This document shows, piece after piece, positions 3 through 17,702 of a DNA stretch of 33,467 bases. Positions within the stretch are counted from its first letter, which is position 1; each line of letters opens with the position of its first letter. The notes under the pieces were generated by a model. The model was not told where the DNA came from. It saw only the letters and a program-made list of their open reading frames with translations, and did not search any database. The DNA is taken from IMG/VR virus record IMGVR_UViG_3300042434_000205, positions 1 to 33,467 of that record; one strand, 5' to 3'. The DNA comes from a virus. Both the position numbers and the translations under genes were made by a program.

Positions 3-1337
3 GAGGCCAAAAGAACATGGTCTGACAATCTCTCCGACATCACGGAGAGGGCCGACAAGGCAATCACTGATCTGGCTGGCGCAACTGATCTTTCGACGGT
101 TTCTAGTTCCGTTTTAAACAGCCTCGACAAAACGCGCACCCAACTGCGCGGAGAAGCCGATAAAATATATGATGACGTTGAAGCCATTATTCCGCGTGGA
201 ACAGTATTCCAGCCCAACAACATCGTCATCGCCTTGAACAAGATCATTGGCGACCTTGGTGGCATTGAAGGCATGACGGATGCCGAGCGCAAGCTGTTCA
301 AGCTGGTCACAAACCCAGATCAGCCGGTCACCTACATGCGGCTGATGCGCGAAAAGGATCAAATCCGCCGGGCAAAGGATGGAGATATTCGGGACAACCC
401 CTATGGCAGCATCGACCAAAGATCGCTTCGGACCATGTATGACGCGCTTGTCGCTGACCAACTGGCCAACGCTGAACGCATTGGTGGTGTCGATCTGAGA
501 AAAAACCTTGAGTTGGCCAATTCTCTTTGGGCGCAGCAAAGCGAACTCGGCGATAAAATTGTTCTTGGCTTTGGCAAGAACATGAATGGCAGCATTTCGC
601 AAAAGCTAAGAAGCGCGATCACAACTGGAAAGAAGGGCGACATTTCTGGCTTGAACAGTATTTTGGAGATCATTCCAAAAGACCTGCGCAAAGAGGCGGT
701 TTTGTCAGCCATCCGTGAGGTTTCCACCAGCACGCAAGGTGGAGAGCGCGGGTTTGGGTTTTCTCAATACACCGACTTCTATTCCAGCATGCGCAGAAAT
801 CCTGTCGTTTACAAAGAGATCGTCAAGAACATCGGTCCAGAGGCCGAGGCTGTTCTCCGCGATCTTTATGAGGTTTCGCGCCGCGTGACGGATGCCAGAG
901 CCAATGTCATATCCACTGGCAAGGCAAACCAGCCGCTTTATGGGGCTATGGTAGCCGAGGGCCTCGTCGGCAAGGTGTTCTCTTCAACCGCTGGCCGTCG
1001 TGCTGTGCGCGCGGCTGGAAGCGGCGGCGGCGCCCTTGTCGGCGGCATTCCCGGCGCAATGCTTGGCGACGCGATAACGGATGCAATAACATCAGGATCT
1101 CCTGATCGCCTCAAAGACGCTGGCAAACTGTTCGCGTCAGATGCGTTCAAGGATCTCGTCGAGAAAGCTGCAACCAACACCGTCACCGAAACTTCAAAGC
1201 GCCGCGTTCTGGCCGATCCGGCTTTCAGAAAGTGGGCCAAGGCCGCTGACATCGGCGACCCGCGTATCTGGATCGACGGCGCACTTCTAACGGTGACGGC
1301 AGACGAGGGCGAGAAGCCCCAGGCAGCCCCGCAATGA
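3..1337 (+). CDS. C-terminal part of a large virion protein (5' end outside window)
   Basis: The frame is open from the first complete codon of the window, so only the last 444 residues are visible. They are mostly helical and charged, and end with a Gly/Ala-rich stretch at about visible residues 336-360 that could be a membrane-active segment. The gene lies directly before the receptor-binding genes, where podoviruses of this type carry internal virion or DNA-ejection proteins, so an ejection role is the best guess from position. I recognise no enzymatic motif in the visible part. An internal ATG at 234 exists, but the upstream codons continue in the same style, so it is not taken as the start. 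The base composition is less GC-rich than the right half of the window. Confidence 0.75.
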   Translation, partial: EAKRTWSDNLSDITERADKAITDLAGATDLSTVSSSVLNSLDKTRTQLRGEADKIYDDVEAIIPRGTVFQPNNIVIALNKIIGDLGGIEGMTDAERKLFKLVTNPDQPVTYMRLMREKDQIRRAKDGDIRDNPYGSIDQRSLRTMYDALVADQLANAERIGGVDLRKNLELANSLWAQQSELGDKIVLGFGKNMNGSISQKLRSAITTGKKGDISGLNSILEIIPKDLRKEAVLSAIREVSTSTQGGERGFGFSQYTDFYSSMRRNPVVYKEIVKNIGPEAEAVLRDLYEVSRRVTDARANVISTGKANQPLYGAMVAEGLVGKVFSSTAGRRAVRAAGSGGGALVGGIPGAMLGDAITDAITSGSPDRLKDAGKLFASDAFKDLVEKAATNTVTETSKRRVLADPAFRKWAKAADIGDPRIWIDGALLTVTADEGEKPQAAPQ

Positions 1338-1389: not shown

Positions 1390-2229
1390 ATGCCGCTGAC
1401 GCAACTTGCCCCGCCGTATCCGATTTTCACTGATCGAGATGGCAAGCCGCTCGATGCTGGCTATCTGTATTTCGGCACCGCAGGCTTGAACCCTGAAACC
1501 AATCCGATCCAAGTCTATTACGACATCAACCTGACGCAGCCTGCGGCGCAGCCCCTGCGCACGTCGAATGGTTACGTCATGCGTAACGGCTCGCCCGCGT
1601 TGATCTATGCAAACGCGCAATTCTCTGTGACGGTGCGCGACAAGGCAAGCCAGCTTGTGATCTACAGCCCGGTCGGGTTTGGCGTCATTCCCGCTTCAGC
1701 CAGCCCCGGCGGCTCTTCGCTTGGTTATGATGACTTTGTCGGCGATGGTGTAACGACGATTTACACAATCTCTTCGACGGTCCTTTCAAGTTCGGCTGTC
1801 GATGTGTTTATTGATGGTGTTTATCAGTCAAAGGACAACTACACCGCATCAGCCACAACTGTCACTTTCAGCACTGCGCCGCCTTTACTATCTGCCATTG
1901 AGATCGTCGCATATGGCGTCAACAATGTTGGCAGCATCAACGCGGTCAATACAATTTTTAATGCGGCTATCAGCGGCTCAGTCACCCGCACGGCGCAGGC
2001 CAAGATGGCCGAAATCCCATCTGTCAAAGACTTCGGCGCGTTCGGCGATGGCGTGACAAACGATGCCTCAGCATTCACGTCTGCATGGGCGGCCACCGCC
2101 CCGCAGGCGGTCTATGTACCGGCTGGATCTTATGCGATCACCGGGACGGTGACGGGTAAATTCTTTTCATTCGGCGTGGTAACAGTGGTCGGCGGAACCG
2201 TCACCACAATCACCAACCTCGTGCCATAA
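1390..2229 (+). CDS. Tailspike-like protein with P22-type head-binding domain and truncated beta-helix
   Basis: Residues 1-95 match the pattern of the P22 tailspike head-binding domain: a PIFTDRDGKPLDAGYLYFG opening and a QVYYD strand, followed by a YSP end. Residues 112-178 form a second small beta domain (DGVTTIYTISS and DVFIDGVYQSKDNYT segments). Residues 211-250 carry the opening of a pectate-lyase-type beta-helix (KDFGAFGDGVTNDASAF). The protein then stops at residue 279, where full spikes continue for several hundred residues. It is probably an adaptor that attaches other spikes to the tail, or a spike cut short by recombination. The ATG has GAAAGGA at 1377-1383. Confidence 0.85.
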   Translation: MPLTQLAPPYPIFTDRDGKPLDAGYLYFGTAGLNPETNPIQVYYDINLTQPAAQPLRTSNGYVMRNGSPALIYANAQFSVTVRDKASQLVIYSPVGFGVIPASASPGGSSLGYDDFVGDGVTTIYTISSTVLSSSAVDVFIDGVYQSKDNYTASATTVTFSTAPPLLSAIEIVAYGVNNVGSINAVNTIFNAAISGSVTRTAQAKMAEIPSVKDFGAFGDGVTNDASAFTSAWAATAPQAVYVPAGSYAITGTVTGKFFSFGVVTVVGGTVTTITNLVP

Positions 2230-2239
2230 GGAGGCGACG

Positions 2240-2338
2240 ATGACCATCAGACAACAAGGCGGCATCTGGCACTGCGGACATTTACTTTTCAGTCACCTAT
2301 CGTGCGGCATAAAGGAAAAGACAAATGGCACTGACTAA
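2240..2338 (+). CDS. Possible 32-aa ORF between spike genes
   Basis: An ATG at 2240 follows an excellent Shine-Dalgarno (AAGGAGG at 2228-2234) that overlaps the stop region of the adaptor gene. The frame runs 32 codons, contains a CGHLL core and basic residues, and ends 14 bases inside the next spike gene, which has its own AAAGGA. I recognise no family. The strong ribosome site is the only real support. It could be a coding remnant left when the upstream beta-helix was truncated, or a translational relay to the spike gene. Confidence 0.35.
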   Translation: MTIRQQGGIWHCGHLLFSHLSCGIKEKTNGTD

Positions 2339-3896
2339 AGCACACAACCGCATGATTGATGGGGCGGCAGTAACGCCAGAGGATTTTGGTGCTGTTGGCA
2401 ACGGGGTCACGAACGACACTGCCGCACTTCAGGCAGCGTTCAACTACGCCATCGCAAACGACAAAGCTATCGTCACAAACGGCGTCTACAACCATGCTGG
2501 CGCTGCGCTTTCCATCACTGGATCACTGAACTGGTCTGGGTATGGGCGGATTGAAATACCTGCTGGTGGCAATAACATTGTCATTGATGGTGACGGTGGT
2601 GATGTAAAAATATCTGGCGTCACGATCAAGGGTGCAGGTCAGTCTAGCACTGCGCTGGCTGGTTCTGTAGAGACCTTATATTTCAGCAACGCAAATCTTG
2701 TTCGCCTTGAAAACGTAGCGATTACTGACCTGAACTCAGATCGCACAGTGTGGGCAGAGCGTGATGTGCAGCGGTTTGAGATGCTCAATGGCAGCATTGA
2801 ACGGGTCGGGCCTTCTAACGCAATTCAATCTCGTGCAGTAGATACCCTTGTAGACGGCGTCACGTTTAACAACTTGGTGTCTCACGGTGTTCGTGGTGGC
2901 GTCAACTTTACTGACCAGCTTTCAATCACAGCCGTCACCAAAGCAAACCCCGCCGTCGTAACAGCCCCTGGCAATGACTATCAAGAAGGTGACTGGGTTT
3001 ACATCAACTATTGCTCAGGCATGACGGAACTGAACGCCATAAACTTCTTTAAGGTTGGCACGGTATCCGGTGACACATTCCAACTGGATGGAATTGATAG
3101 CACAGGCTTTGGCACTTACACTGGAGATGGCAAGGTTGTTTGGACAACCAGTTCTCTTACCGTTGCAAACTGCTTGGGTATTTTGATCGGCCAAAGCGCA
3201 GGCACTTTTGTCTTGGTTGAGGTTGGCTGTCGGAATGTTGTGATCGATGGCAACAATATCCGGCAAGCACGTCAACTGTGTAAGGTCGCTGAAGCCGAAA
3301 CTATTTCTATTTTTGGCAACAACGCAGACGATCTTGTTGGCGGCCAATCTGCGGCTCAGTGGCTCATCCAAGTTACGGACTCAAACGATACTGGAACCCA
3401 AGACCCAGCTCATGTCCGCATCATTGGCAACTATGGCCGAGGAATGCGTAACGGCATCCTTACAAATAGGAAAAGCATCGTTCAAGGAAATCACCTGACA
3501 GATGTTGGCCGTGACGCAGCCACCGGCGATGCGTTCTATGGTATTCGCTCCGAGGGTGGTTCTGTGATTTCTGGAAATATCATCGACGGGATTTCCCCTG
3601 ATGTGGTTTCTGGCTCCGCAACAAGAGCTGCCCTTTTCATTGAAGGCAGTGAGCGGTCGAATATTGCAAACAACATCGTTTACGCGTGGACTGGCAAAGG
3701 CGCAGCCTGCGAAGGGATCAGGGCTTCTGGTCCAGTGAGCATGATAACAAACACGTTTGTTGCTGAAATTGCTGCAAACATATTATCAGGTGCTGCTACC
3801 TCTTTAATTTTGTATAATGACTTTAGTGGGTCAGCCACTCCTGCCCCCATAGGGGCTGGTGTTGCCGGATCGACCCTTGTCGGAAACTTAACCTAA
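2325..3896 (+). CDS. Tailspike, pectate-lyase-type right-handed beta-helix
   Basis: This 523-residue protein starts with a short lead (MALTKAHNRMIDG) and then the pectate-lyase superfamily signature EDFGAVGNGVTNDTAALQAA at residues 19-38. The rest is rich in repeated short strands with Asn, Gly, Ile and Val (IxGNxxxD-type turns), as expected of a right-handed beta-helix that binds or cuts surface polysaccharide. It lacks a P22-type head-binding domain of its own, so it probably attaches through a partner, most simply the 1390-2229 protein. A central insertion (about residues 200-270) with WVYINYCSG and GTYTGDGKVVW strands breaks the helix pattern. The start is supported by AAAGGA upstream. 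Catalytic residues cannot be assigned by eye. Confidence 0.85.
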   Translation: MALTKAHNRMIDGAAVTPEDFGAVGNGVTNDTAALQAAFNYAIANDKAIVTNGVYNHAGAALSITGSLNWSGYGRIEIPAGGNNIVIDGDGGDVKISGVTIKGAGQSSTALAGSVETLYFSNANLVRLENVAITDLNSDRTVWAERDVQRFEMLNGSIERVGPSNAIQSRAVDTLVDGVTFNNLVSHGVRGGVNFTDQLSITAVTKANPAVVTAPGNDYQEGDWVYINYCSGMTELNAINFFKVGTVSGDTFQLDGIDSTGFGTYTGDGKVVWTTSSLTVANCLGILIGQSAGTFVLVEVGCRNVVIDGNNIRQARQLCKVAEAETISIFGNNADDLVGGQSAAQWLIQVTDSNDTGTQDPAHVRIIGNYGRGMRNGILTNRKSIVQGNHLTDVGRDAATGDAFYGIRSEGGSVISGNIIDGISPDVVSGSATRAALFIEGSERSNIANNIVYAWTGKGAACEGIRASGPVSMITNTFVAEIAANILSGAATSLILYNDFSGSATPAPIGAGVAGSTLVGNLT

Positions 3897-3935
3897 TGCG
3901 CTTCGAGCTTAAACAGTCCAGAAAAGGGGGTTGAC

Positions 3936-4949
3936 ATGGCAAACCGATTTTGGGTAGGCGGCTCCGGCACATGGGACGCATCCAGCACTGCTAACTGGTC
4001 GGCCACATCCGGCGGCGCTTCTGGTGCGTCCGCTCCGAATGCTGCAGACGTTGCTGTCTTTGACGCAAACTCTGGAACCGGAATTGTAACCCTTGGAGAA
4101 ACAGTCACTCTTCTGCGGTGCCTGTGGACGGGCTACACTGGCTCGTTCCAGCCATCTACATTTCAGATCAACATCGTTGGCGAAGGAGCCAGCCAGCTTT
4201 GGACAGGCGGCACGACTGCTATTTTCCTTGCCATCCCGACTGTGAATTTTACTTATTCCGGGGCAAACTCCCGCATAGTTGGAATTGGCTTTACGACAGA
4301 TTTTGCCCGCAACATCAACGTCAACATCACAGCAGGTTCTGGAACATTTACCCTTGCGGGAAATACTCACATAAACAACCTGAACTGCTCAGGCTTTTCT
4401 GGTCAGCTTGCGAACACGCTTGCTTTGCATTTTACTGGCAACGTAACGCTATCCTCAACCATGTCGCTTTCCGCTGGCACCGCCACTATCGATCTCACAG
4501 GATCGGCGAGCAGAACGATCACGACAAACGGTGTTGCCATTGATCGTCCAATTCGCCTTCCTGCTCTAGCAACTGGTGGCACCTTCAACTTTGCAGATGC
4601 GTTCACGCAAGGCTCAACTCGCGCCTTCACCATAATTGCAGGAACAGTCAGGTTTAAGAACGGCGTCACTAGCACAGTCGGTGCTTTTGCAACAGCTGGC
4701 ACAGAACAGAAATTCCTGAGTTCAACCGTCGCTGGATCGCAGGCAACCTTGTTGGAAGTAGGTGGCGTTGTGAATGCTTCCTACCTCACCATCCAAGACA
4801 TCAAGGCGACCGGCGGCGCGACTTGGAACGCCTTTACAAACCGCAGAAACATCGATGATGGGAACAACGACGGCTGGAACTTTCTTTCCATCCCATACCC
4901 GGTGTTTCGCAGCGCCTTCAACCTGATCTTCAAGCCGGTCATCCAATAA
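3936..4949 (+). CDS. Beta-rich phage adhesin/tail protein
   Basis: The 337-residue product begins NRFWVGGSGTWDASSTANW, an opening seen in a family of phage structural and adhesin proteins. It continues as alternating beta strands rich in Thr, Gly, Asn and Ser, with a LTIQDIKATGG segment near residue 284 and a W-rich end. The C-terminal tail (FRSAFNLIFKPVIQ) is short and hydrophobic. It sits between the spike and small structural genes and is probably a tail-associated or decoration protein. The ATG follows AAGGGGG at 3923-3929. Bases 4785-4817 are an exact 33-bp repeat of a segment in the accessory gene at 10006-10326. Confidence 0.7.
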   Translation: MANRFWVGGSGTWDASSTANWSATSGGASGASAPNAADVAVFDANSGTGIVTLGETVTLLRCLWTGYTGSFQPSTFQINIVGEGASQLWTGGTTAIFLAIPTVNFTYSGANSRIVGIGFTTDFARNINVNITAGSGTFTLAGNTHINNLNCSGFSGQLANTLALHFTGNVTLSSTMSLSAGTATIDLTGSASRTITTNGVAIDRPIRLPALATGGTFNFADAFTQGSTRAFTIIAGTVRFKNGVTSTVGAFATAGTEQKFLSSTVAGSQATLLEVGGVVNASYLTIQDIKATGGATWNAFTNRRNIDDGNNDGWNFLSIPYPVFRSAFNLIFKPVIQ

Positions 4950-4960
4950 AGGAGGCAGAC

Positions 4961-5269
4961 ATGCCAGCAACGACCAAGACGCTATCTGCTGAAAACACCT
5001 TCACGGATGCGGTTCTCATCATCGGAGACTTCAACATCTCCATCGCGGCCAGCACCTCGCCGGCGTTCAGCGGCACCGTGACGGCGCAACGCTCCACCGA
5101 CGGCACCGTCTGGCGCGACGTTGACACATGGGTAAGCGTATCTGCCGAAGAAGTCGGCTACGATCCGATGAAAAACTTTTACCGCGCAGGGATCAAAACC
5201 GGGAACTATTCGGCTGGATCTGTTACGATCACGCTGAACGGTTACGACAACTGGCCGCCGCGTTACTGA
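4961..5269 (+). CDS. Small beta-rich structural protein
   Basis: This 102-residue protein has alternating strands (SGTVTAQRSTDGTVWRDVDTW) and ends with NYSAGSVTITLNGYDNWPPRY. It has the size and style of small phage decoration or fibre-associated proteins, and of the other 111-residue structural protein at 32824, although I see no clear sequence identity with it. AAAGGAGG lies at 4948-4955 just before the ATG, overlapping the previous stop. No enzymatic motif is visible. Confidence 0.65.
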   Translation: MPATTKTLSAENTFTDAVLIIGDFNISIAASTSPAFSGTVTAQRSTDGTVWRDVDTWVSVSAEEVGYDPMKNFYRAGIKTGNYSAGSVTITLNGYDNWPPRY

Positions 5270-5270
5270 T

Positions 5271-5429
5271 ATGGCCAAGGGTTTGTACAGCAACATCGCT
5301 GCTAAACGCGCGCGCATCAAAGCCGGATCTGGCGAGAAGATGCGCAAGCCTGGCACCAAAGGCGCACCCACGGCGGCGGCTTTCAGAGCCTCTGCCGTGA
5401 CGGCCAAGCCGAAGAAAAAGGGCAAGTGA
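5271..5429 (+). CDS. Small basic conserved phage protein (52 aa)
   Basis: A 52-codon gene starting MAKGLYSNIAAKRARIKAG and continuing with GEKMRKPGTKGAPTAA and a Lys-rich end. This pattern recurs in small proteins next to tail and lysis genes of marine and freshwater phages; the function is unknown. The very high Lys/Arg content suggests nucleic acid or virion binding. It starts one base after the previous stop and overlaps the next gene by one base (TGATG), so the three genes are translationally coupled. Confidence 0.75.
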   Translation: MAKGLYSNIAAKRARIKAGSGEKMRKPGTKGAPTAAAFRASAVTAKPKKKGK

Positions 5430-5725
5430 TGGCCAAGACGCCAGCCTGGACGCGCAAAGAAGGCAAGAACCCCAAGGGCGGCTTGAACGCCAAGGGGCGC
5501 GCGTCTGCGAAGGCTGAGGGCATGAACCTCAAAGCCCCAGTGAAGTCCGGCGACAACCCGCGCCGGGCTTCGTTTCTGGCGCGTATGGGCAACATGCCGG
5601 GGCCTGAGTATAAGGACGGCGAACCCACGCGCCTGCTGCTGTCTTTGAAGGCATGGGGCGCATCCAGTAAAGCCGACGCCAAGAAAAAGGCCAAGGCGAT
5701 CTCGGCCCGCAATAAGGGGAAGTGA
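5429..5725 (+). CDS. DUF6321-like basic protein
   Basis: The 98-residue product opens [20 protein letters not shown] and contains NARRASF-like and MGNMPG elements ([19 protein letters not shown]) and a Lys-rich C-terminus. From memory this resembles the phage DUF6321 family, whose role is unknown; the family name is tentative. The ATG overlaps the previous stop by one base. An in-frame GTG three bases upstream is possible but unnecessary. The two basic genes 5271 and 5429 probably act in the same virion or DNA-binding context. Confidence 0.7.
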
Positions 5726-5727
5726 CC

Positions 5728-6282
5728 ATGAACTACATCGAGATGGCCAGGCAGATAGCCATCGAGGAGGGTGTTGACCCCGATCTGTTCTTGCGTCTGA
5801 TCCAGCAGGAAAGCAGCTTTAACCAAGACGCGGTGTCATCTGCCGGCGCGTTAGGTCTGGCGCAGTTGATGCCAGGCACGGCGGCGGATCTCGGTGTTGA
5901 TCCTATGGACCCTGAGCAAAACTTGCGCGGCGGTGCGCGGTATCTGAAAATGATGTTTGACGAGTTTGGAGACCCGCGTCTGGCCTTGGCAGGTTACAAT
6001 GCCGGCCCCGGCAATGTGCGCAAATACGGTGGCGTCCCACCGTTTGAAGAAACGCAGAATTACGTCAGCAAGATCCTCGGCACGGGCGCCGCTGATCGGG
6101 CCTTCAATGGTCGGTCGGCCAACCTGCCGCTGGCGATGGGCCAGCCTGCCGGCGAGGATTACGGCATCGCCTCGACGGCCCAGATGCCTATGTTCCGGCT
6201 TCCACAACTGCGCAGCACGCAGTCGGATGCACTGGCGGCATACGATCCTTATGCTATCTTGCAGCAGTTCAATTTGAAATAA
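5728..6282 (+). CDS. Lytic transglycosylase (SLT domain)
   Basis: This 184-residue enzyme carries the soluble lytic transglycosylase pattern: QQESSFN with the catalytic Glu at residue 28, [15 protein letters not shown] at 38-52, [10 protein letters not shown] at 88-97, and ETQNYV at 108-113. It would cleave the glycan strands of peptidoglycan to give anhydromuramyl ends. No signal peptide is visible. In this position it could be a virion-associated enzyme that opens the wall during DNA entry, or part of lysis. A second wall enzyme (GH19 type) is encoded 1.5 kb downstream. The C-terminal 60 residues are not part of the SLT fold. ATG at 5728 is chosen over the in-frame GTG at 5722. Confidence 0.93.
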
Positions 6283-6300
6283 ACGTGCGTGGAGACTGAG

Positions 6301-6525
6301 ATGGAAGTGCTGGAAGCAATCATGCAGTGGGTCGTCGCGCCGGTCGCGGCTTTTGTGTTGTGGATGTACCGCACACAGCAAGACCACGCCACAAAGCTGG
6401 CCGTTCTTTCTGCCGTCCACGAAGCGAACAAAGAAGCCCACGACCGGGAGTTCAAAGAACTGCGTGAGAGTTTCAAGCGCGTGTTCGAAAAGCTGGACGG
6501 TATTGAAGCCGCTTTGAGAAAGTGA
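6301..6525 (+). CDS. Membrane-anchored coiled-coil protein (lysis-region)
   Basis: The 74-residue product has one hydrophobic segment at about residues 8-22 (MQWVVAPVAAFVLWMYR). A charged helix follows (EANKEAHDREFKELRESFKRVF) with heptad-like spacing, ending IEAALRK. The topology suits an inner-membrane protein with a cytoplasmic or periplasmic coiled coil. An inner-membrane spanin or a holin accessory are both possible. GGAG at 6291-6294 is well placed for ATG 6301, favouring it over GTG 6289. Its stop overlaps the small gene 6522-6665 by four bases (GTGA). Confidence 0.65.
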   Translation: MEVLEAIMQWVVAPVAAFVLWMYRTQQDHATKLAVLSAVHEANKEAHDREFKELRESFKRVFEKLDGIEAALRK

Positions 6526-6665
6526 GCGTGCCGTTGATCTGGGTGGCCTACACCCACCTTTGGATCGACGGGCGCATGGCATTTGTCAAGATTTGCAGGT
6601 ATAGTGCCGACATAGCACTGGCGGTTCATCCGCTCTTCCCGTGTCCGCCGTTCTGGAGCCTGTGA
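6522..6665 (+). CDS. Possible 47-aa overlapping ORF
   Basis: A GTG at 6522 forms a GTGA overlap with the upstream stop, and the frame runs 47 codons to a TGA that overlaps the next ATG as TGATG at 6663-6667. This double overlap fills what would otherwise be a 139-base gap in a region where all genes touch. The product has aromatic and hydrophobic residues (PLIWVAYTHLWIDG) and a Cys/Pro-rich end (HPLFPCPPFW). No family is recognised. An in-frame GTG at 6528 is another possible start. Confidence 0.5.
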   Translation: MSVPLIWVAYTHLWIDGRMAFVKICRYSADIALAVHPLFPCPPFWSL

Positions 6666-7156
6666 TGTTCGACCCCGTTAGCATTGGCATGGCCATCTCC
6701 GTCGGCAGCAAGGCTTTCGGCCTGCTGAAGCAGGGCATCGCCGCTGGCCGCGAGATACAGGACATGGCGGCCCAGCTTTCGGAATGGGGCAAGGCTGTCT
6801 CTGACATCGCCTATGCAGCAGACAAGGCCAACGAGCCGCCGGGCATATTCAAAACACTGTTCGGCGGCGACACGCAGAAAAGCGCCATCGACATCTTTGC
6901 CGCGCAAAAGCAGTGCGAACAGCAACGCAAAGAACTCCGGCAGCTCATCAGCTACAGCTATGGGAACGACGCCTGGCTAGAGTTTCAGGCCATTGAGCGC
7001 AGGGTGCGCGAACAGCAGCGTGAGCAGGTTTACCGCCGACGCGAACTTATTGAGGGGCTGATTGAGGCTGCGCTCTGGACGGGTATTATCGCGGTGACAA
7101 TCGTCCTCGCGGGCGTCGGCCTGTACTTCTGGGGCGTCTATCTGGGGAGGTGGTGA
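6665..7156 (+). CDS. Conserved phage membrane protein, lysis region
   Basis: This 163-residue protein begins MFDPVSIGMAISVGSKAFG, has a charged helical middle (AAQKQCEQQRKELRQLISYS and REQQREQVYRRRE) and a C-terminal membrane segment at about residues 136-158 (GIIAVTIVLAGVGLYFWGVY). Proteins with this architecture and opening recur in marine and freshwater podoviruses, without a known role. GGAG at 6655-6658 sets the ATG at 6665 rather than the GTG at 6641. It may be a spanin-like or scaffold-like partner of the small membrane proteins that follow. Confidence 0.7.
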   Translation: MFDPVSIGMAISVGSKAFGLLKQGIAAGREIQDMAAQLSEWGKAVSDIAYAADKANEPPGIFKTLFGGDTQKSAIDIFAAQKQCEQQRKELRQLISYSYGNDAWLEFQAIERRVREQQREQVYRRRELIEGLIEAALWTGIIAVTIVLAGVGLYFWGVYLGRW

Positions 7157-7347
7157 TGGTGCTGGAGCATTGGGTGTGGCCTGCCTTTGCAATTGGTATT
7201 GCATTGGTATTCTATTTCAGCGGAGATGGGTTCTACCGCTATCCCTGCCAAGATCCTGCAAACTGGTCTGCGATAGAATGCACGCCACCTGTCTGCCTTC
7301 GTACCAAAAACTGCGCCACTGATCTGACGGGAGGGGCTGCGCCATGA
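7156..7347 (+). CDS. Small cysteine-rich membrane protein
   Basis: A 63-residue protein with an N-terminal hydrophobic segment at about residues 6-24 (HWVWPAFAIGIALVFYF). A Cys-rich periplasmic-type tail follows: YRYPCQDPANWSAIECTPPVC and a later C in NCATDL. The YPCQDPxNW motif recurs in small membrane proteins of lysis regions of aquatic phages. The four Cys residues could form disulphides outside the inner membrane. It overlaps its upstream neighbour as TGATG and the next gene as ATGA, and GGGGAGG at 7144-7150 precedes the start. Confidence 0.7.
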   Translation: MVLEHWVWPAFAIGIALVFYFSGDGFYRYPCQDPANWSAIECTPPVCLRTKNCATDLTGGAAP

Positions 7348-7610
7348 GTAAGAACGATCCTGATTTTCTGGAAGCCAAGCTGCGATACTTCGTGGGTGTC
7401 TCCCTGACCTTAATCCTCGGGGGAAGCATTTTCATCATCCTGTATTCGCTGGTATTCGTGACCCAACCTCTGGGTGAGAGTTCAGAAAACGACCGCGCAC
7501 TGTTCTCCATCCTCACCCCCATCGCCAGCTTTATTACTGGGGCCTTGGGCGGCGTGATGGCCGCAGGCAACAACCGCAAACGCGACGAACCGCAGGAGCC
7601 GCAAGAATGA
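7344..7610 (+). CDS. Two-TM membrane protein, holin candidate
   Basis: The 88-residue product has two hydrophobic segments, at about residues 15-39 (YFVGVSLTLILGGSIFIILY) and 53-73 (FSILTPIASFITGALGGVMA), followed by a short charged tail (NNRKRDEPQEPQE). Size, topology and charged C-terminus fit a class II-type holin that would release the downstream endolysin. The assignment rests on topology and position only. It overlaps the neighbouring genes at both ends (ATGA at 7344 and 7607). Confidence 0.6.
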   Translation: MSKNDPDFLEAKLRYFVGVSLTLILGGSIFIILYSLVFVTQPLGESSENDRALFSILTPIASFITGALGGVMAAGNNRKRDEPQEPQE

Positions 7611-7789
7611 TCGGGAAGATGGTCGGAATGATGATTGGCCGCAAGGCTAAGGAGAAGGCCGTGGATGCGGTGCTGTCGAAGGTGGATCTGCCTGATCCTG
7701 TGGAGAACGCCATCAAGGCCGCCGCCACTGGCAACGTGGGCGGCCTTTTGGGCCAAGTTGGAAAGATTAAGAAGGTCTTGAAGAAATGA
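7607..7789 (+). CDS. Small basic amphipathic protein
   Basis: This 60-residue product (MIGKMVGMMIGRKAKEKAVD opening, GNVGGLLGQVGKIKKVLKK end) is Gly/Lys-rich with amphipathic helices. It sits between the holin candidate and the endolysin and overlaps both by four bases. No family is recognised. An amphipathic membrane-binding lysis helper is possible, but only position suggests it. Confidence 0.6.
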   Translation: MIGKMVGMMIGRKAKEKAVDAVLSKVDLPDPVENAIKAAATGNVGGLLGQVGKIKKVLKK

Positions 7790-8640
7790 GCCTGCTGACC
7801 GTTGACCAACTGCGTGCCATGATCCCGACCAACAAAGAGGTTGAGGCTTGGTGCGAGGAACTGAACAAGGCGCTGCCTAAGTACGGCATTACGACACCAG
7901 AGCGTATTGCTGGATTTACCAGCCAATGCGCCCATGAGAGCCAAGATTTTTGCGCCCTGTCCGAGAACCTGAACTACCGCGAGGAAACGCTGAACAAGGT
8001 CTTCCCGCGCTACTTCGGACCCGGCAAACGCAATGCCGCCGAGTATGCCAAGAACCCTGAGAAGATCGCCAACTATGTCTACATGGATGAGTTCCGCACC
8101 TCAAAGCTGGGCAACACCCAGCCCGGCGATGGCTGGCGTTTCCGTGGCCGTGGGCTGAAGCAGCTCACCGGGCGGGACAACTACACCCGCTTTGCCAAAG
8201 ACTACAACATGACGGCTGAAGAAGCCGCCGTGTGGGTGGAGACCAAGGAAGGCGCGCTGGCGTCGGCTCTGTGGTTCTGGAACACCAACAAGCTGAATGC
8301 CATCGCGGACACCGGGAACGTGGCTGCGCTGACCAAGAAGATCAATGGCGGCGACATCGGCCTTGCAGACCGTCAGGCGCGCTATGCTAAGGCGATGGCA
8401 GCCTTGGGTGGCAAGATCACTGCATCTGCCCCTGCCGCCGCTCCTGCGGCCTCTGGCGGCGTCCTGCGTCGTGGATCTAAGGGTGACGACGTCAAGAAGA
8501 TGCAGGCCAAGCTGGGTCTGACGGCTGACGGCGATTTCGGCCCTGGCACAGAGGCTGCGCTGAAGAAGTGGCAGGCTGCCAACGGGCTGACGGCTGATGG
8601 TGTAGCGGGTCCGAAGACGCTGGCCAAGCTGCTCGGCTGA
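7786..8640 (+). CDS. Endolysin: GH19-type chitinase-like domain plus peptidoglycan-binding domain
   Basis: The 284-residue enzyme has a glycoside hydrolase 19 (chitinase-like) domain at residues 1-210. The probable catalytic Glu51 is in AHESQDF, with ENLNY at 60-64, FRGRGLKQLTG at 119-129 and KINGG at 185-189. An Ala/Pro-rich linker (about 212-226) leads to a PG_binding_1 domain at 228-284 (SKGDDVKKMQ, DGDFGPGTEAALKKWQ, DGVAGPKTL). It would hydrolyse peptidoglycan glycan at lysis. No signal peptide is visible, consistent with holin-dependent release. It is the last gene of the rightward lysis cluster and is followed by a terminator-like hairpin. Confidence 0.93.
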   Translation: MSLLTVDQLRAMIPTNKEVEAWCEELNKALPKYGITTPERIAGFTSQCAHESQDFCALSENLNYREETLNKVFPRYFGPGKRNAAEYAKNPEKIANYVYMDEFRTSKLGNTQPGDGWRFRGRGLKQLTGRDNYTRFAKDYNMTAEEAAVWVETKEGALASALWFWNTNKLNAIADTGNVAALTKKINGGDIGLADRQARYAKAMAALGGKITASAPAAAPAASGGVLRRGSKGDDVKKMQAKLGLTADGDFGPGTEAALKKWQAANGLTADGVAGPKTLAKLLG

Positions 8641-11114: not shown

Positions 11115-11305
11115 CACATGATCCCCAATCTATCCAGTGCGAAGTACGATTGCTTATAGTGCTTTATGAGGCGATCAACGCGCTGGATCTTCTCATCAAT
11201 CTGCGGGTTCGGCGGCGCTTCATCGAAATCGGTCAGCGTCTCCCGATAATCCCACAGGGCGGTCAGCACGATGTGCGTGTCCATTGCTCCAAGTTTGACG
11301 GCCAT
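11114..11305 (-). CDS. Hypothetical 63-aa helical protein
   Basis: The product contains MDTHIVLTALWDYRETLTDF and KIQRVDRLIKHYKQSYFALD. It is helical and mixed in charge, with no recognised family. ATG 11305 is chosen because it overlaps the stop of the upstream 33-codon gene as TGATG; a GTG at 11314 is the alternative start. Confidence 0.6.
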   Translation of the reverse strand: MAVKLGAMDTHIVLTALWDYRETLTDFDEAPPNPQIDEKIQRVDRLIKHYKQSYFALDRLGIM

Positions 11306-11406
11306 CAGATCCACCCCATCCCAAGGCCAATCAGCATCAGGCCATAGCCGATGGCGAAGATTGCGATGCAGGCGATCAGGTCGGCGAGGATGTCTCTGAT
11401 ACGCAT
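11305..11406 (-). CDS. 33-aa single-pass membrane microprotein
   Basis: A 33-codon gene, MRIRDILADLIACIAIFAIG at the start and ending MLIGLGMGWI. It is basic for a few residues, then continuously hydrophobic, so almost the whole protein is one membrane helix. It has a consensus AAGGAG seven bases upstream, inside the end of the previous gene, and a TGATG overlap with the next. The precise spacing and signal make a real gene likely. Similar tiny membrane proteins occur in alphaproteobacterial phages; the role is unknown. Confidence 0.65.
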   Translation of the reverse strand: MRIRDILADLIACIAIFAIGYGLMLIGLGMGWI

Positions 11407-11407
11407 G

Positions 11408-11602
11408 TCAAATCTCCTTCAGGGCGTTGGCGATGGCGGTGTTCAGGCGCTGGGCCAACTCGGCGCGGCGCAGGTAAAACGTCAGGGCTTCGATGTCGTC
11501 GTAGTCCGGCATCTCGCCGTGCTTGCTGTATTCGATGTCGTTGCAGACGCACTCAAGCGCGGTCGCGGCCTGCTCCAGCGTGAGGGTTACGGTCTTGGTC
11601 AT
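11408..11602 (-). CDS. Hypothetical 64-aa protein
   Basis: The product starts MTKTVTLTLEQAATALECVC and continues with YDDIEALTFYLRRAELAQRL. It is predicted helical, with a short beta lead. No family is recognised. AAGGAG, overlapping the previous gene's TAA stop, lies eight bases before the ATG. The next gene starts one base after its stop. Confidence 0.65.
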   Translation of the reverse strand: MTKTVTLTLEQAATALECVCNDIEYSKHGEMPDYDDIEALTFYLRRAELAQRLNTAIANALKEI

Positions 11603-11612
11603 GGTGTTCTCC

Positions 11613-11747
11613 TTAAAACGGCGGCTCTTCGCCTTGGTAAGTTGGTTTCCACTGTGGCGGCGCGTAGGCTGCGGGCTGTGGGGCTGGCTTCGGCGGGGCC
11701 TGCCGGGGGATGATCCCCAGCAGGTCGAGGTGGTCGGCGAGGGTCAT
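11613..11747 (-). CDS. 44-aa Pro-rich protein with acidic-aromatic C-terminal tip
   Basis: A short helix (MTLADHLDLLGIIP) is followed by a Pro/Ala/Gln-rich linker and an end of YQGEEPPF. The tip resembles the acidic tail plus Pro-Phe that bacterial SSB uses to dock its partner proteins, but this is only a resemblance. The start overlaps the upstream stop as ATGA and the stop overlaps the next Shine-Dalgarno. The longer frame up to 11874 in another phase reads as low-complexity Arg/Pro/Ala and is rejected. Confidence 0.55.
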   Translation of the reverse strand: MTLADHLDLLGIIPRQAPPKPAPQPAAYAPPQWKPTYQGEEPPF

Positions 11748-11890
11748 GCGTTGCGCCAGCCTTCTTTCCAAGCGAAGTAACGCTGCGGCTCTGCGTAAAC
11801 GTCAAAGGGGTTGTAGTGGCAGGCGATGCCTGATGCGCGGGCCAAGCGGCCAGCGGCGAGGTCTTCTGCTTCAAGCGGGTGGCGGGTCAT
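11744..11890 (-). CDS. Rmf/CrpP-like 48-aa protein
   Basis: This small protein contains DLAAGRLARASGI, then CHYNPFDVYAEPQRYFAWKEGW near its end. The A-x-x-G, NP(F/Y) and AWxxGW spacing is that of the Rmf/CrpP group, which includes ribosome modulation factor and the plasmid/phage CrpP proteins. A role in ribosome binding is therefore possible but unproven. Of two in-frame ATGs, 11890 has AAGGA at good spacing, whereas 11899 touches it directly, so 11890 is preferred. It is the first gene of the leftward accessory operon. Confidence 0.65.
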   Translation of the reverse strand: MTRHPLEAEDLAAGRLARASGIACHYNPFDVYAEPQRYFAWKEGWRNA

Positions 11891-12704: not shown

Positions 12705-13138
12705 TCGCTGGCCGCGACCCAAGCGTGCAGCGCCTGCCACGCGGCGTCACAGCCTAACGCCACGCAGGAAAACGCCCCAGCTTTCGCAGCCGCCTCAAGA
12801 TACTCGCGCTGCCCGTCCTGCCAGCGCCCTTGCGTCGGATCGCGGCGCTTCAATTCGCAGACAAACGTCACCCGCCCAGGAATGATGATGTCGGCAGCCC
12901 CTGACACCATGCCCTCGGCCTTGTGCCTTGCAATCGCGCCAAGCTGCCCGCCAGCGCGCAAGCCTTCGTTTCGTGGGTGGATGGCCAGCGCGCCCCAGGT
13001 CGCCCCATACTCGCGCCGCAATCGCGCGAAAAACGTGATCTGCTCTTGCGCCTCTGTCGCGCACTTGCCGCGATACTCCAGATCGCCAAACGTCACCACG
13101 CCACGCTGGGCGATGTCTTGGAAGTCACTCAGCCGCAT
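12701..13138 (-). CDS. VRR-NUC-type PD-(D/E)XK nuclease
   Basis: The 145-residue protein shows the VRR-NUC pattern: an early ATEAQEQITFFARLR helix, the HPRNEG segment at about residues 54-59, GAADIIIPG with the active-site Asp (about 81-89), CELKRRD with the Glu-x-Lys pair (about 94-100) and a later Gln (DGQREYLEAA). Such nucleases act as structure-specific or Holliday-junction-type enzymes. It follows the helicase in the recombination operon, which fits processing of replication or recombination intermediates. GAGGT precedes the ATG, and the gene overlaps the helicase end by 14 bases. Confidence 0.8.
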   Translation of the reverse strand: MRLSDFQDIAQRGVVTFGDLEYRGKCATEAQEQITFFARLRREYGATWGALAIHPRNEGLRAGGQLGAIARHKAEGMVSGAADIIIPGRVTFVCELKRRDPTQGRWQDGQREYLEAAAKAGAFSCVALGCDAAWQALHAWVAASD

Positions 13139-14984
13139 GTTGATCTACCTCATCAAAAGGGTCCCATTCGGGTTCCGGTTCGGGCTTGGCGTTCGGCGCC
13201 TCATCGGCTGGCCGATTATATGCCTTGATGTCAAAAAAGCCCGTCTCTGCGTTCTTCGCATAAGTCACGGTTGACGGCGCAACCTTTCCGCCGTCCGTAA
13301 CTCGGTCAAATGAACTCCACGCCACCTGCCCGCGAACATGCGGCGCGTCTGGCAAGAACCAGGTGGCAAATTGCCGATATGGCGTGACCCATTCCACGCG
13401 CATCGTGCGGTTTCCTGATCGGCTGATGCCTGGCGCGCAGGACATGCTCACAACCTTGTCCGTCTGCGTGCGCGTTGGGTCTTTCTTCAGCGCCTTGAAA
13501 TCGGCCACCAGCTTTTCGTTGGGGTCAACAATCTCGCCCTTGCATGTCACGCAATACCGGGCCGCGATGTCGTTGTCTGCCGCACAATGCGGGCATTCCT
13601 TGTAGGTCCAGCGATAACCGCAACGCTCGTATTCTCCGCGCTTGCCAGCCTGCACAAGCCCCATGCAGCGCCGCCCGTGGTGGCCTGAGATCGGGCCGAA
13701 GTCGGACATGATCTGTCGCCCGTCCAGATCCAGAACATAGCCCGCCTCGTCTTTCTGGTATCCCAGATATTGCACGTTGGCGCTGAAGCTGTTTTCGTAT
13801 TGGCACGATGGGCAGACGCAGGTCAGCCCGCCACCGCCGGCAGCAGCTTTCCCAGCCTTCACCACCGGCGCGAACAGATCGCCGTCAGGACAATGGTCGT
13901 CAAGGTTCGTGGTGTAGTCCAGCACCAAGCAGTCGGTCTTGCCTTGATGCAAGCGAAGCCCGCGCCCAATGATCTGTTGCAGCAGGCCAACGCTTTCGGT
14001 CTTGCGAAGGATGGCGATCAGATCGACGTGGCTGGCATCGAACCCGGTCGTCAGCACCGACACATTGACCAGATATTTGATCTGCTGCGCCTTGAACCGC
14101 CGCAGGATGTCGTCGCGCTTGCCCTTCGGCGTTTCGCCCGTAACGATCTCGGACATTTCCGGCGGAAGGCTGGCCATGATTTCATGCGCGTGCTTCACTG
14201 TGGCCGCGAAGAACATCACGCCCCGGCGATCCTGCGCCTGCGCCACGACATCGCCCACGATGGCCGCCGTCTTGCGCCCGTGGCCGTGATAGGCGCGATC
14301 CACCGCGTCGGCATCAAACTGGCCCCGGCTGTTCAGCGCCAGCCCGCTGGTGTCGTATCCGCTGGCATTGATCTGGCCGATCACCGGCGGCGTCAGGAAC
14401 CCCATCTCAATCAGAGACCGCGCGTCTATTTTGTAGACGCACTTGGCAAAGTATGGATCGCGCGCGTTATCTTCTCCGTTAATTCTGCCGCTTTCATGCT
14501 CTCGGAAGATCCATCCTGACCCTAAACGGTAAGGCGTGGCCGTCAGCCCGCAGACGCGCAGGTTCGGGTTGCCATCCCGCATCGCTTCGATGATCTCGCG
14601 CACCGTTGGCGTGATGCCGTGCGCCTCGTCCAGGATCACCAGCGCATAGTGATCCTTGAACCGGCTAACGCGGTTTTTCACGGTCAGCGGTGATCCAAAC
14701 ACCACCGGGTGCCGTAGTTCCTTTGCGCCCGCCGATGCTGAGAACATGCTGGCGCGGTTTCCCGTCGCCAGAAACTTGTCGCGGTTCTGCGTGACCAACT
14801 CGGCGCTCGGCGCAAGGCACAGCACGCGCTTGCCCGTCATGCGGTGAATGACCGCCGCAATCTCCGCAATGATGTGCGACTTGCCCGCGCCCGTGGCGGC
14901 ATCGATGATGAACGGCGCTGTGCTGCGCTTCATCCAATCCAGTGCAGCCTGGGCCGCGTCAGCCTGATATGGGCGGAGGGTCAT
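13125..14984 (-). CDS. SF2 DEAD/DEAH-type helicase with C-terminal zinc ribbons
   Basis: This 619-residue protein carries superfamily 2 motifs: a Q-motif-like RPYQADA at the start, Walker A ATGAGKS at 30-36, DEAH at 119-122, GLTATPYR at 147-154 and motif VI QIIGRGLRLHQG in the second domain. After about residue 380, Cys pairs (CVCPSCQ, then CGYRW, CPHC and CVTC) form zinc-ribbon-like units. It would use ATP to unwind or remodel DNA during phage replication and recombination. ATG 14984 overlaps the exonuclease stop (ATGA). The gene lies between the exonuclease and the VRR nuclease. Confidence 0.92.
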   Translation of the reverse strand: MTLRPYQADAAQAALDWMKRSTAPFIIDAATGAGKSHIIAEIAAVIHRMTGKRVLCLAPSAELVTQNRDKFLATGNRASMFSASAGAKELRHPVVFGSPLTVKNRVSRFKDHYALVILDEAHGITPTVREIIEAMRDGNPNLRVCGLTATPYRLGSGWIFREHESGRINGEDNARDPYFAKCVYKIDARSLIEMGFLTPPVIGQINASGYDTSGLALNSRGQFDADAVDRAYHGHGRKTAAIVGDVVAQAQDRRGVMFFAATVKHAHEIMASLPPEMSEIVTGETPKGKRDDILRRFKAQQIKYLVNVSVLTTGFDASHVDLIAILRKTESVGLLQQIIGRGLRLHQGKTDCLVLDYTTNLDDHCPDGDLFAPVVKAGKAAAGGGGLTCVCPSCQYENSFSANVQYLGYQKDEAGYVLDLDGRQIMSDFGPISGHHGRRCMGLVQAGKRGEYERCGYRWTYKECPHCAADNDIAARYCVTCKGEIVDPNEKLVADFKALKKDPTRTQTDKVVSMSCAPGISRSGNRTMRVEWVTPYRQFATWFLPDAPHVRGQVAWSSFDRVTDGGKVAPSTVTYAKNAETGFFDIKAYNRPADEAPNAKPEPEPEWDPFDEVDQHAAE

Positions 14985-15844
14985 CTGACCCCCCAATAGC
15001 TTGACGGCTTGCCGCGATACGGTTCGAGATCGGCATCGGGCAGAAGCGCCTTGACCGCTTTGGCATAGGCAATCGCGCCCGCCTTTTCAGTTTTGGTCAG
15101 CTTGCGCCCGGCGAAAACCACGTTCTTCTCGCCTGCGATCTTCACCATGTCGGCAATCAATTCCTTCTTGCGCTCCTCGGCTCGATCCAGCGCCTCGCAG
15201 ATCTGGTCATATTCGGCCATGATGCGGTGCGCCTCTGGCGTGTCGATGATCGGGCGCTTTGGCTCAAGGTGAACGTCTGGCGTCTTGCGCTCGTCAACGT
15301 ACTCGGCATGAAACTGGCGCAGGTTTGGCAGCGAAAACGCCTGCCACATCTCATCAACCTCGACACGTTCCAGCATCGTGCCGTTGGGGGACCATTGATA
15401 GAAATCCCACCACTTGCGCCCCGTGACCCAGAGCGAAAACTGGATCTGGTCGTAATAGTGCCGCTGTTCCTTCAGCGGCTTGAACACTGGCTCCTCGTCT
15501 TTACGAAGGCCAAACGGGCATTTGATCTCAAGCCCGCCATCTTCGCCGATCAGCCCGTCCGGGCTGCACCCGGCCCAATGCTCGTAATTCACAAAGCCGA
15601 TCTGTTCGACCTCGTTGCCCGTTTCCATGATGTATTCGGTCAGAGCGCCTGCCTCGTTGCGCGTTCCGTATTCGGTGGCGATGTTGCCCTCAAATTCTTC
15701 GGGCGCCCCGTGATACGCGCGCACCAAGCGGCGCATGATGTCATCGCGTGTGGCATAGGGCGCATTGCCCAAGATCGCGCCAACGATTGATGCTGTGATC
15801 CGCCCTGCCCGTGCCTCAAACCATGCTAGACTGCGTTGTTCCAT
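14981..15844 (-). CDS. YqaJ/lambda-type exonuclease (viral recombinase)
   Basis: The 287-residue enzyme has the YqaJ pattern: EQRSLAWFEARAGRITAS at the start, a GTRNEAGALTEY helix near residue 60, GCSPDGLI with the catalytic Asp, GGLEIKCP with the Glu-x-Lys pair, and Gln/Tyr in YYDQIQFSLW. It would digest 5' strands of duplex DNA to expose ssDNA for annealing. In the same operon lie the SSB-like protein and the Sak4-like ATPase, so together they form a recombination system. ATG 15844 has GGAG six bases upstream; the longer TTG start at 15916 would read through an inverted repeat and is rejected. Confidence 0.92.
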   Translation of the reverse strand: MEQRSLAWFEARAGRITASIVGAILGNAPYATRDDIMRRLVRAYHGAPEEFEGNIATEYGTRNEAGALTEYIMETGNEVEQIGFVNYEHWAGCSPDGLIGEDGGLEIKCPFGLRKDEEPVFKPLKEQRHYYDQIQFSLWVTGRKWWDFYQWSPNGTMLERVEVDEMWQAFSLPNLRQFHAEYVDERKTPDVHLEPKRPIIDTPEAHRIMAEYDQICEALDRAEERKKELIADMVKIAGEKNVVFAGRKLTKTEKAGAIAYAKAVKALLPDADLEPYRGKPSSYWGVR

Positions 15845-15873
15845 TTCCGGCTCCAATCGGTTAAAGTTTGTTT

Positions 15874-15933
15874 GCCCAGCGCCGCGCCTCTGAATGCTCA
15901 GGGTAATCGGCTCCAACCTTCACGGCGCTGGGC
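15874..15933. repeat. Perfect 11-bp inverted repeat in exonuclease leader
   Basis: GCCCAGCGCCG (15874-15884) and CGGCGCTGGGC (15923-15933) flank 38 bases between the SSB-like stop and the exonuclease start. The loop contains a copy of TTGGAGCCG that also forms the exonuclease ribosome site. No T-run follows. It may be an RNA stem controlling exonuclease translation, an RNA-processing site or an operator. Confidence 0.6.
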
Positions 15934-15945
15934 GATCCGTTCACA

Positions 15946-16596
15946 TCACAGGAACTGCGGAGCGAACGGGATTTCGTCATCCATCACCGGCGCGCGATAG
16001 CTGCCACCGGCAGCGCCTGCGCCGAAGTCATCACGCGATCCTGACGCCATGCCAGACCCGCCTGCCGGCAGAGGCTTGGCTTCCGCAATGTGGATGTCCT
16101 TTGATGCCTTGGAAGCCACCGCAGAAACCCAATTGCCGTGCATCATGCCGCCGTTGCGCGTGTCAGGCATCGACCACGTCATGATCGTGCAGACCATCGG
16201 CTTGTTGGTCAGCGCCATCACCAGATCATCGGTCGTCGGAATGCCCGGCTTTGCGGTCAGCTTGCCGCCCGCGTTGGCATCAATGGCCGCCAGCATCTTG
16301 CGTGCCTTGTCGCGCTTGTTCTTGGCAGCCGCCTCGTCCTTCGCGCCAGGGTCTGCGTCAGTGACCCACAGCTTGTGAAACACCTTGCGGTTCTTGTATT
16401 CCTCGGGTGCAAGCACCGTCCAGCGCGCCGAGATAAACTCCTCGCCCGACAGTTTGCGGTCCCATTTGATCTCATCGATCATGGCCAGCACCGACGACCC
16501 CGCCGGGATCGGTTCGATGTTGCCCGAAGGCACCTCATATTCAGTGCCAGTGTTTGCGGCGGTGTCGCCGGTTGAGAGATCCCAGAAAGACATCAT
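15946..16596 (-). CDS. SSB-like / DUF669-like ssDNA-binding protein
   Basis: The 216-residue protein has a beta-rich N-terminal half (YEVPSGNIEPIPAGSSVLAM, then GEEFISARWTVLAPEEYKNR, then KVFHKLWV), resembling the DUF669-type replacement for SSB in phages. A Gly/Ala-rich linker follows, and the end is DDEIPFAPQFL, an acidic Phe-containing tip like that of bacterial SSB. It would coat ssDNA and recruit partners through the tip. The genes for its likely partners lie on both sides. The start overlaps the Sak4-like stop (ATGA). Confidence 0.75.
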   Translation of the reverse strand: MMSFWDLSTGDTAANTGTEYEVPSGNIEPIPAGSSVLAMIDEIKWDRKLSGEEFISARWTVLAPEEYKNRKVFHKLWVTDADPGAKDEAAAKNKRDKARKMLAAIDANAGGKLTAKPGIPTTDDLVMALTNKPMVCTIMTWSMPDTRNGGMMHGNWVSAVASKASKDIHIAEAKPLPAGGSGMASGSRDDFGAGAAGGSYRAPVMDDEIPFAPQFL

Positions 16597-17393: not shown

Positions 17394-17413
17394 GGATCGT
17401 TCCTTTCTTGTTT

Positions 17414-17457
17414 GGCACCTTGTGCCTTGCGTGGCGGGTCACGCTCCAAATCCCGCC
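17414..17457. promoter_or_regulatory. Two hairpins in the Sak4-like gene leader
   Basis: GGCAC-CTT-GTGCC (17414-17426) and GGCGGG-N13-CCCGCC (17433-17438/17452-17457) lie between the promoter region and the ribosome site of the leftward operon. They could be operators or attenuating RNA stems. Both are short. Confidence 0.35.
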
Positions 17458-17459
17458 TG

Positions 17460-17491
17460 TTGACATTGCATATTGCGCCGTGGCATGTCAA
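17460..17491. promoter_or_regulatory. Face-to-face divergent promoter region
   Basis: TTGACA on the plus strand (17460-17465) and TTGACA on the minus strand (17491-17486) point at each other and form an imperfect palindrome. The leftward copy with a 17-base spacer gives CAATGT as -10; the rightward -10 is poor. The region separates the recombination operon from the HTH gene at 17525, so the boxes may be operator half-sites as much as promoters. Confidence 0.45.
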
Positions 17492-17701: not shown

Positions 17702-17702
17702 C

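Follow-up and report, generated by a model that had tools for sequence, protein, structure and literature searches.

A probable P22-type tail adaptor and an anchorless spike encoded side by side as the proposed two parts of a phage receptor-binding apparatus

The 33,467 bases analyzed here, hereafter the window, make up one linear virus record (IMG/VR record IMGVR_UViG_3300042434_000205). Two neighbouring genes in it encode P1, which has a P22-type head-binding domain and ends after the first turn of a pectate-lyase-type helix (the stub), and P2, a spike protein that begins again with the same helix cap. A first-pass annotation had described the pair as a split receptor-binding apparatus, either a branched spike or a decayed spike whose head had been reused. 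Both open reading frames (ORFs) are indeed complete, each with a start and a stop codon, and we consider it likely that P1 is a trimeric tail adaptor on which P2 is docked non-covalently as a separate spike. Two features escaped that annotation: a jelly-roll domain spanning residues 107-181 of P1 and, in the 95 bases that separate the P1 and P2 genes, what remains of a third gene. The jelly-roll resembles known spike-docking domains and occurs upstream of 20 of 23 spikes with a P2-like N-terminal peptide, which supports the branched alternative. Judged by comparison with its relatives' sequences, P1 is a whole protein and not a decayed spike.

The AlphaFold2 model of P1 (40-row alignment, mean predicted local distance difference test score (pLDDT) 78.8, predicted template modelling score (pTM) 0.38) shows three domains, at residues 8-99, 107-181 and approximately 209-277. 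The first had been called a P22-type head-binding domain. A single-sequence Pfam search of P1 gave no match to PF09008, though this family matches 16 of 26 P1 relatives, and a profile of those 26 relatives (residues 1-105) searched against the PDB retrieved the P22 tailspike head-binding domain (1lkt, expectation value (E) 3e-7; 8eb7, E 3.6e-7) as well as Sf6 gp14 (7sg7, E 1.7e-6), with collinear P22 and Sf6 matches. The P1 model superposes on 1lkt with Z 13.6 and 2.2 A over 91 residues, and the assignment can be retained. No match to the T7-type anchor PF03906 was found in P1 at E 1. The window also encodes a phage stabilisation protein (PF11134, E 2.3e-43; phrog_578, E 1.2e-101) of the family which we take to be that of P22 gp10, and which thus fits a P22-like tail for this phage. 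Homologous to the P22 domain and sharing its fold, the head-binding domain would plug P1, presumably as a trimer, into that tail. Two named phages, MW202475 and PfAn1, carry the head-binding domain within one large gene. Short head-binding proteins of VSN-002 and MW202867 were considered as members of the same system; by profile they have no jelly-roll or stub, and they were not counted.

The best fold match of the P1 jelly-roll is to residues 187-250 of CBA120 TSP4 (7rfv; Z 9.7, 1.5 A over 64 residues). The domain also matches, with Z 7.3, a chain of the T4 baseplate (5iv5_AC, 602 residues) that is presumably gp10, and its match to DUF4183 is weak (E 3.9e-5; the 23.8 bits lie below the cut-off of 25.1). 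A jelly-roll profile finds one strong domain in P1, at residues 108-179 (E 6.5e-35), and a second, weak match in the stub (E 1.4). The 7rfv entry is the TSP4 1-250 construct, and because TSP4-N250 is without XD3 and shows packed XD2 domains according to the available portion of PMC8825819, we read residues 187-250 as XD2. The same portion reports that XD2 and XD3 domains bind partner spikes in CBA120 (TSP2 at XD2, TSP1 at XD3) and partner proteins in T4. By its fold and its co-occurrence with P2-like spikes, the P1 jelly-roll may be a three-fold docking face for the N-terminal peptide of P2, MALTKAHNRM.

No head-binding domain was found in P2 by Pfam or profile search, in agreement with the first-pass annotation, and the repeated DFGAxGxGVTND start that it described is also present: P1 residues 211-253 are matched by P2 with E 1.8e-4, and the cap profile matches P2 with E 8.6e-10. 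The N-terminus of P2 matches tail-spike profiles, a weak match to phrog_15455 extends over residues 9-484 (E 1.7e-5), and a rung-like motif, chosen after inspection of the sequence, occurs in 8 copies versus 1.8 in shuffles. Beyond residue 300, P2 is homologous only to L080 among the loci compared (the window itself aside), as expected for a fast-changing host-specific part. P2 would be a trimer that binds or cuts sugars and is attached to P1 without a covalent link. Tail tubular B proteins of Pelagibacter phages also match the E1_FCCH-like stretch of P2.

The MALTKAHNRM pattern was found in 45 stretches, 23 of them with at least 2.5 kb of upstream sequence, and in 20 of these 23 a P1-type jelly-roll protein is encoded at most 5 kb upstream (17 of 19 without repeats). 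When viral control loci chosen by their pectate-lyase cap (L094-L165) were searched whole and on both strands, the jelly-roll was found in 10 of 72, or 9 of the 55 that are at least 8 kb long; among genome cap loci searched in the same way it was found in 1 of 80. Among the 20 upstream proteins there are 16 long open frames (593-917 amino acids (aa)) without a stub end, three stub adaptors and one protein of 298 residues with no cap; with so many lacking the stub end, docking is more plausibly placed at the jelly-roll. In L353 and L384, which share the same spike, the jelly-roll lies downstream instead, on a 205-aa protein that ends soon after the domain. Short adaptor-like proteins ending soon after the gp10-like domain are encoded in L353 (minus strand, 11260-11877), L384 (6527-7144) and L379 (5479-6375), the last a 298-residue open frame with the domain at residues 171-236. 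Pairs of a T4gp10-like domain and a short N-terminal motif recombine freely in Klebsiella phages, per the available portion of a 2026 study (PMC13073335), and we count this free pairing for the adaptor-plus-spike reading.

From 57 sources examined, 51 head-binding ORFs were drawn (50 loci and the window). Six end at the stub (the window and L001-L005), 38 are longer (501-1018 aa, including 33 that carry a pectate-lyase cap), five run off their contig, and two (L027, L028) are a head-binding domain alone followed by a separate spike. This other type of split (6001-7910) consists of a 103-aa head-binding protein and then a 524-aa spike starting MANRIL. We compared the 34 loci with a complete gene and 2.5 kb of downstream sequence, dropping 17 of the 51. 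A free spike follows in 9 of 13 loci with the jelly-roll versus 2 of 21 without it (p 5.5e-4), the latter being L027 and L028, and a middle gene, described below, lies downstream in 12 of 13 versus 2 of 21. After removal of near-identical proteins the counts are 8 of 11 versus 1 of 19 for the free spike and 10 of 11 versus 2 of 19 for the middle gene. The cap profile, run on the downstream ORFs, confirms 10 of the 11 free spikes, that of L002 being counted from its start MTLTK alone. In L023 and L025, which fall outside the 34-locus count, a head-binding ORF lacking the jelly-roll is preceded by the middle gene. A related pair is recorded in GenBank for Vibrio phage D181, in which the jelly-roll is found in a tail protein (profile E 6.5e-11) and the spike after it begins with MALTKVTNRM.

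Several observations weigh against this interpretation of P1 and P2. The jelly-roll fold is frequent in phage necks and T7-type anchors (8hqo, Z 9.3; 9ilp, Z 9.2; 7boz, Z 6.2), the P1 domain being matched by T5-type neck proteins and the N-terminus of T7 gp17 as well, and a fold common to docking and anchoring proteins is by itself no proof of docking. The link between domain and spike is not one to one: L383 has the MALTKAHNRM peptide and no jelly-roll within the stretch examined, the fused jelly-roll loci L008, L009, L010 and L017 have no free spike, and in L331, L332 and L345 a stub without jelly-roll is followed by a middle gene and a MALTK spike, their spikes starting MALTKV and not MALTKAHNRM. 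We would also like to note that the loci are related and that the counts are uncorrected for descent, so that p-values overstate their independence. Among the P1 domains, it is the jelly-roll that shows the weakest constraint, with an uncorrected ratio of nonsynonymous to synonymous differences (pN/pS) of 0.382 across six P22-anchored stub adaptors, against 0.173 for the head-binding domain, 0.143 for the stub and 0.060 for the last 40 residues. Lastly, diverged stubs in four loci (L087, L091, L092, L093) run on into other sequence, and there are stand-alone stub proteins of 97-98 aa (L334 762-1058, L339, L340, L342, L343) with neck and helix turn, no anchor and no directly adjacent spike.

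Some of these points speak for a different geometry, in which P2 docks end to end on the stub rather than on the jelly-roll and the two make one straight spike in two pieces. The stub end is the most conserved part of P1, and the adaptors without jelly-roll in L331, L332 and L345 still precede a MALTK spike. Nevertheless, we find end-to-end docking rather improbable: in L007, L012 and L013 a free spike with a similar peptide accompanies a fused jelly-roll spike that has no stub end, and the jelly-roll proteins upstream of such spikes are, as counted above, mostly long open frames and only rarely stub adaptors. That P2 is a soluble or independently mounted enzyme which never meets P1 seems very unlikely, given the gene order and a conserved N-terminal peptide tied to one domain, even though soluble depolymerases have been proposed for some Klebsiella siphophages (Latka et al., PMC6872550, in its available portion).

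If P1 is an adaptor, as we favour, its third domain would be a "blank" primary spike, consisting of the neck, the first helix turn and a fixed, conserved end that replaces the catalytic helix. That it is a stub of a pectate-lyase helix, as first annotated, is borne out by PF12708 (residues 211-255, E 2.6e-9). The model of this region resembles the first turn of pectate-lyase-type helices (e.g., 5lw3, Z 4.5, 1.8 A over 69 residues); such a low Z is insufficient by itself, and we keep the identification because PF12708 agrees with it. The close relatives do not carry one fused gene that a simple stop has interrupted in the window. Rather, the five closest full-length relatives found (L001-L005) are split at the same residue, being 277-280 aa long, 65-83% identical to P1 and aligned through its last residue, while fused forms exist among more distant relatives. 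L039, L045, L057 (truncated at its start) and L088 share the same end behind N-terminal parts of other kinds. A scan for the stub motif retrieved 21 contig stretches (15 distinct at 95%), all 21 of which stop exactly 17 residues past the motif; together with the window and L088 there are 23 stub proteins, 17 of them distinct at 95% identity. The viral-contig scans took in the best 80 of 137, the best 80 of at least 370 and the best 80 of at least 412, and counts from them are partial. In a stub-alignment scan of genome contigs, a C-terminal stub was found in 0 of the best 80 of 298 loci. The N-terminal parts of the stub proteins vary and include P22-type, T7-type (L039, PF03906 E 7e-7) and other long N-termini, forms of 123-153 aa and the 97-98-aa stand-alone proteins. 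We count it for the adaptor reading that the same back end stands behind either a P22-type anchor (window, L001-L005) or a T7-type one (L039).

These ends bear directly on the idea that P1 is what a stop or deletion left of a fused tailspike after removing its catalytic helix, with P2 as an unrelated newcomer: 38 of the 51 head-binding ORFs are indeed longer, most of them capped, and truncated proteins can arise by loss (Latka et al., PMC6872550, available portion), but decay would scatter the ends, whereas relatives have kept the truncated form, and kept it under purifying selection, with the strongest constraint at the end and a single stop point, which leaves decay hardly credible. Returning to P1 as an intact adaptor, the fixed end of its stub may serve as a cap or a second docking face. 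A bolder proposal, which we offer tentatively and regard as doubtful, is to see in the stub an exchangeable module, a trimeric "blank spike" in miniature with its fixed end as the docking face, grafted behind P22-type, T7-type and other N-termini and even standing alone; with a knob fibre and a free helix spike it would form a three-piece tailspike (anchor, tip and body) assembled in trans.

A probable gene for such a knob fibre is found between adaptor and spike in the relatives. In L001-L005, L039, L045 and L057 the order is stub adaptor, middle gene and free spike, with a middle gene of 189-210 codons starting MTI[KR]..GG.FGRNP and a spike starting M[AT]LT[KR]. L088, L327, L331, L332 and L345 have the same three-gene order, with middle-gene profile matches of E 5.9e-19 or better (L327, 3.7e-38; L088, 2.7e-20). 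Among the 17 distinct stub proteins, 12 precede a middle gene and a spike, one lineage (L330, L335, L344) lies directly before the spike, and three (L336, the L334 pair and the L339 trio) precede neither; in L336 the next gene has no match to the middle-gene profile and no spike comes after. The window alone precedes a remnant and a spike.

The middle-gene profile retrieved none of the window's ORFs, and the apparent remnant lies in the gap between P1 and P2. From 2240 on, the 5' part of the gap shares 19-27 of 30 bases with the relatives' middle-gene starts, a score that, for 7 of 8 relatives, is reached at none of the window's other ATGs. The 3' part agrees with L004, L005, L039, L045 and L057 at 25-31 of 49 bases, unequalled by 857 other stop-ended stretches; agreement with L001, L002 and L003 is unclear (13-20 of 49 bases). 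A tblastn search of the window with the middle proteins of four relatives found both ends of the remnant; all four queries also gave a weak match within P2, starting at 2973, and there were further weak matches (best E 0.13). We read the gap as a deletion between short shared words, or as the same event produced by the assembler. Exact patterns for the 3' and the 5' part of the junction each gave 0 matches in IMG/VR, which is uninformative since near copies may have been excluded. The second option, an assembly error in a phage that truly has all three genes, is a serious possibility, although we would sooner bet against it: the junction falls on a short shared word and is seen in this record only, and L080, which is identical to window 2491-6690, starts at 2491 and so stops short of the junction. 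On the other hand, the L330, L335 and L344 lineage has a stub adaptor and then a spike, with no middle-gene profile match in the stretches examined, so the arrangement does exist.

The model of the L004 middle protein (35 rows, pLDDT 77.1) has a low-confidence start and a knob at residues 56-189. This knob superposes on residues 668-798 of the Det7 tailspike (6f7k), which we take to be its C-terminal domain, with Z 14.2 and 2.3 A over 126 residues; the Foldseek E is only 0.0092. Going by this model, the lost middle gene probably encoded a knob fibre, and in the relatives this small protein would probably be a second part hanging on the adaptor. In Det7 the knob is part of the tailspike chain, unlike in the relatives, where it has a small gene of its own, and in the window, where it is lost.

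What sets P1 apart from described systems is its P22-type plug, its having one proposed docking domain, and a blank stub with a conserved end; the plug-in logic is already known. Similar to the P22 and Sf6 tailspikes, P1 has a head-binding domain, a neck and a first helix turn. Those tailspikes are one chain including the catalytic beta-helix by which a P22-like tailspike is recognized; here the parts are split, the P1 chain stops after the first turn, and an extra jelly-roll lies between head-binding domain and neck. The available portion of PMC6872550 describes Klebsiella phages and coliphages in which the first protein is truncated and has a T4gp10-like part, and a short peptide holds the second spike. 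In K1-5, K1E and SP6 (gp37 with gp46/gp47) there is likewise a short non-catalytic adaptor with gp10-like docking and separate spikes with a conserved N-terminal peptide, but that adaptor has two gp10-like domains and then nothing, whereas P1 has a P22-type anchor, one such domain and then the stub helix. KP34 group A phages similarly have a truncated 307-aa anchor with a gp10-like part and a depolymerase held by a MALxxLV peptide; there the anchor is T7-type and the genes are apart, unlike the P22-type anchor, neighbouring genes and stub end here. In G7C (gp66/gp63.1) and CBA120 (TSP1-4), XD2/XD3 jelly-rolls recruit partner spikes (PMC8825819, available portion), and the first protein is itself a spike, whereas P1 is blank. 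P2 resembles the second spikes of the KP32, KP34 and G7C type in its apparent lack of an anchor and its conserved N-terminal peptide. The listings from our search of open-licence PubMed Central literature showed no paper on the stub or the MALTKAHNRM peptide, none on DUF4183 with phage, and none on cyanophage Pan3/Pam1 tails.

The window also encodes terminase, portal, scaffold and major head proteins in addition to the stabilisation protein, and the coordinates of the features discussed are given in Table 1. Directly before P1 lies a gene of the phrog_6704 type, which by its position is probably the end of an ejection-type protein. The P1-P2 region had been described as less GC-rich and as suggesting imported parts. 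GC content is indeed lower, at 0.554 in P1, 0.503 in P2 and 0.528 in the next gene, P3 (3936-4949), versus 0.591 for 5000-33467, but the gene upstream of P1 is low too (0.547). Import fits the spike, whose GC is below that of the adaptor in 5 of 5 relatives as well, better than it fits the adaptor. P3 follows P2 and encodes 337 aa starting MANRFWVGGSGTWD, with no Pfam match at E 1; L036 (337 aa as well) and L024 have a protein with the same start behind a longer head-binding protein, as does L037 with slight changes. A 102-aa protein at 4961-5269 (MPATTKTLSAENTF...) has neither a Pfam nor a PHROG match, and close relatives of it lie downstream of spike genes in several loci. Further along, 13125-19653 is a replication and recombination block with a helicase, a RecE-like exonuclease, a single-stranded DNA-binding protein (SSB), a Sak4-like annealing protein and a primase.

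Table 1. Features of the window in and around the P1 and P2 genes.
Feature	Coordinates	Strand	Basis
P1, probable adaptor protein, 279 aa	1390..2229	+	ORF with start and stop codon; same-length relatives L001-L005
P22-type head-binding (tail-anchor) domain, P1 residues 8-99	1411..1686	+	Profile against PDB; model against 1lkt
TSP4-XD2/gp10-like jelly-roll, P1 residues 107-181, proposed docking site	1708..1932	+	Fold match 7rfv; weak DUF4183
Neck and stub, first pectate-lyase-type helix turn with conserved C-terminal end SFG..NLVP, P1 residues 205-279	2002..2226	+	PF12708; alignment; motif scan
Putative knob-fibre gene remnant	2240..2312	+	First codons joined out of frame to last codons and stop via a short shared word
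P2, free spike, 523 aa, no anchor domain found	2325..3896	+	ORF with start and stop codon; PHROG tail spike/fibre profiles
N-terminal peptide MALTKAHNRM, proposed docking peptide	2325..2354	+	Alignment; carried by 45 stretches
Second DFGAxGxGVTND cap, start of the putative P2 helix	2373..2504	+	P1-P2 match; cap profile
E1_FCCH-like domain, P2 residues 208-271	2946..3137	+	PF16190 E 3.2e-8
Upstream gene	3..1337	+	phrog_6704 E 1.6e-37 on its 234-1334 part; family without assigned function

The split of anchor and spike would allow a host-specific spike to be swapped as one gene while the anchor is kept. The plug-in spike architecture of cultured enteric phages would hereby be extended to uncultured metagenome phages, with a P22-type plug, and the signature of jelly-roll and MALTKAHNRM peptide would let unanchored spikes be assigned to an adaptor. 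The related pair in Vibrio phage D181 may be testable, and if the stub is a docking face, it would represent a further way of joining spike trimers.

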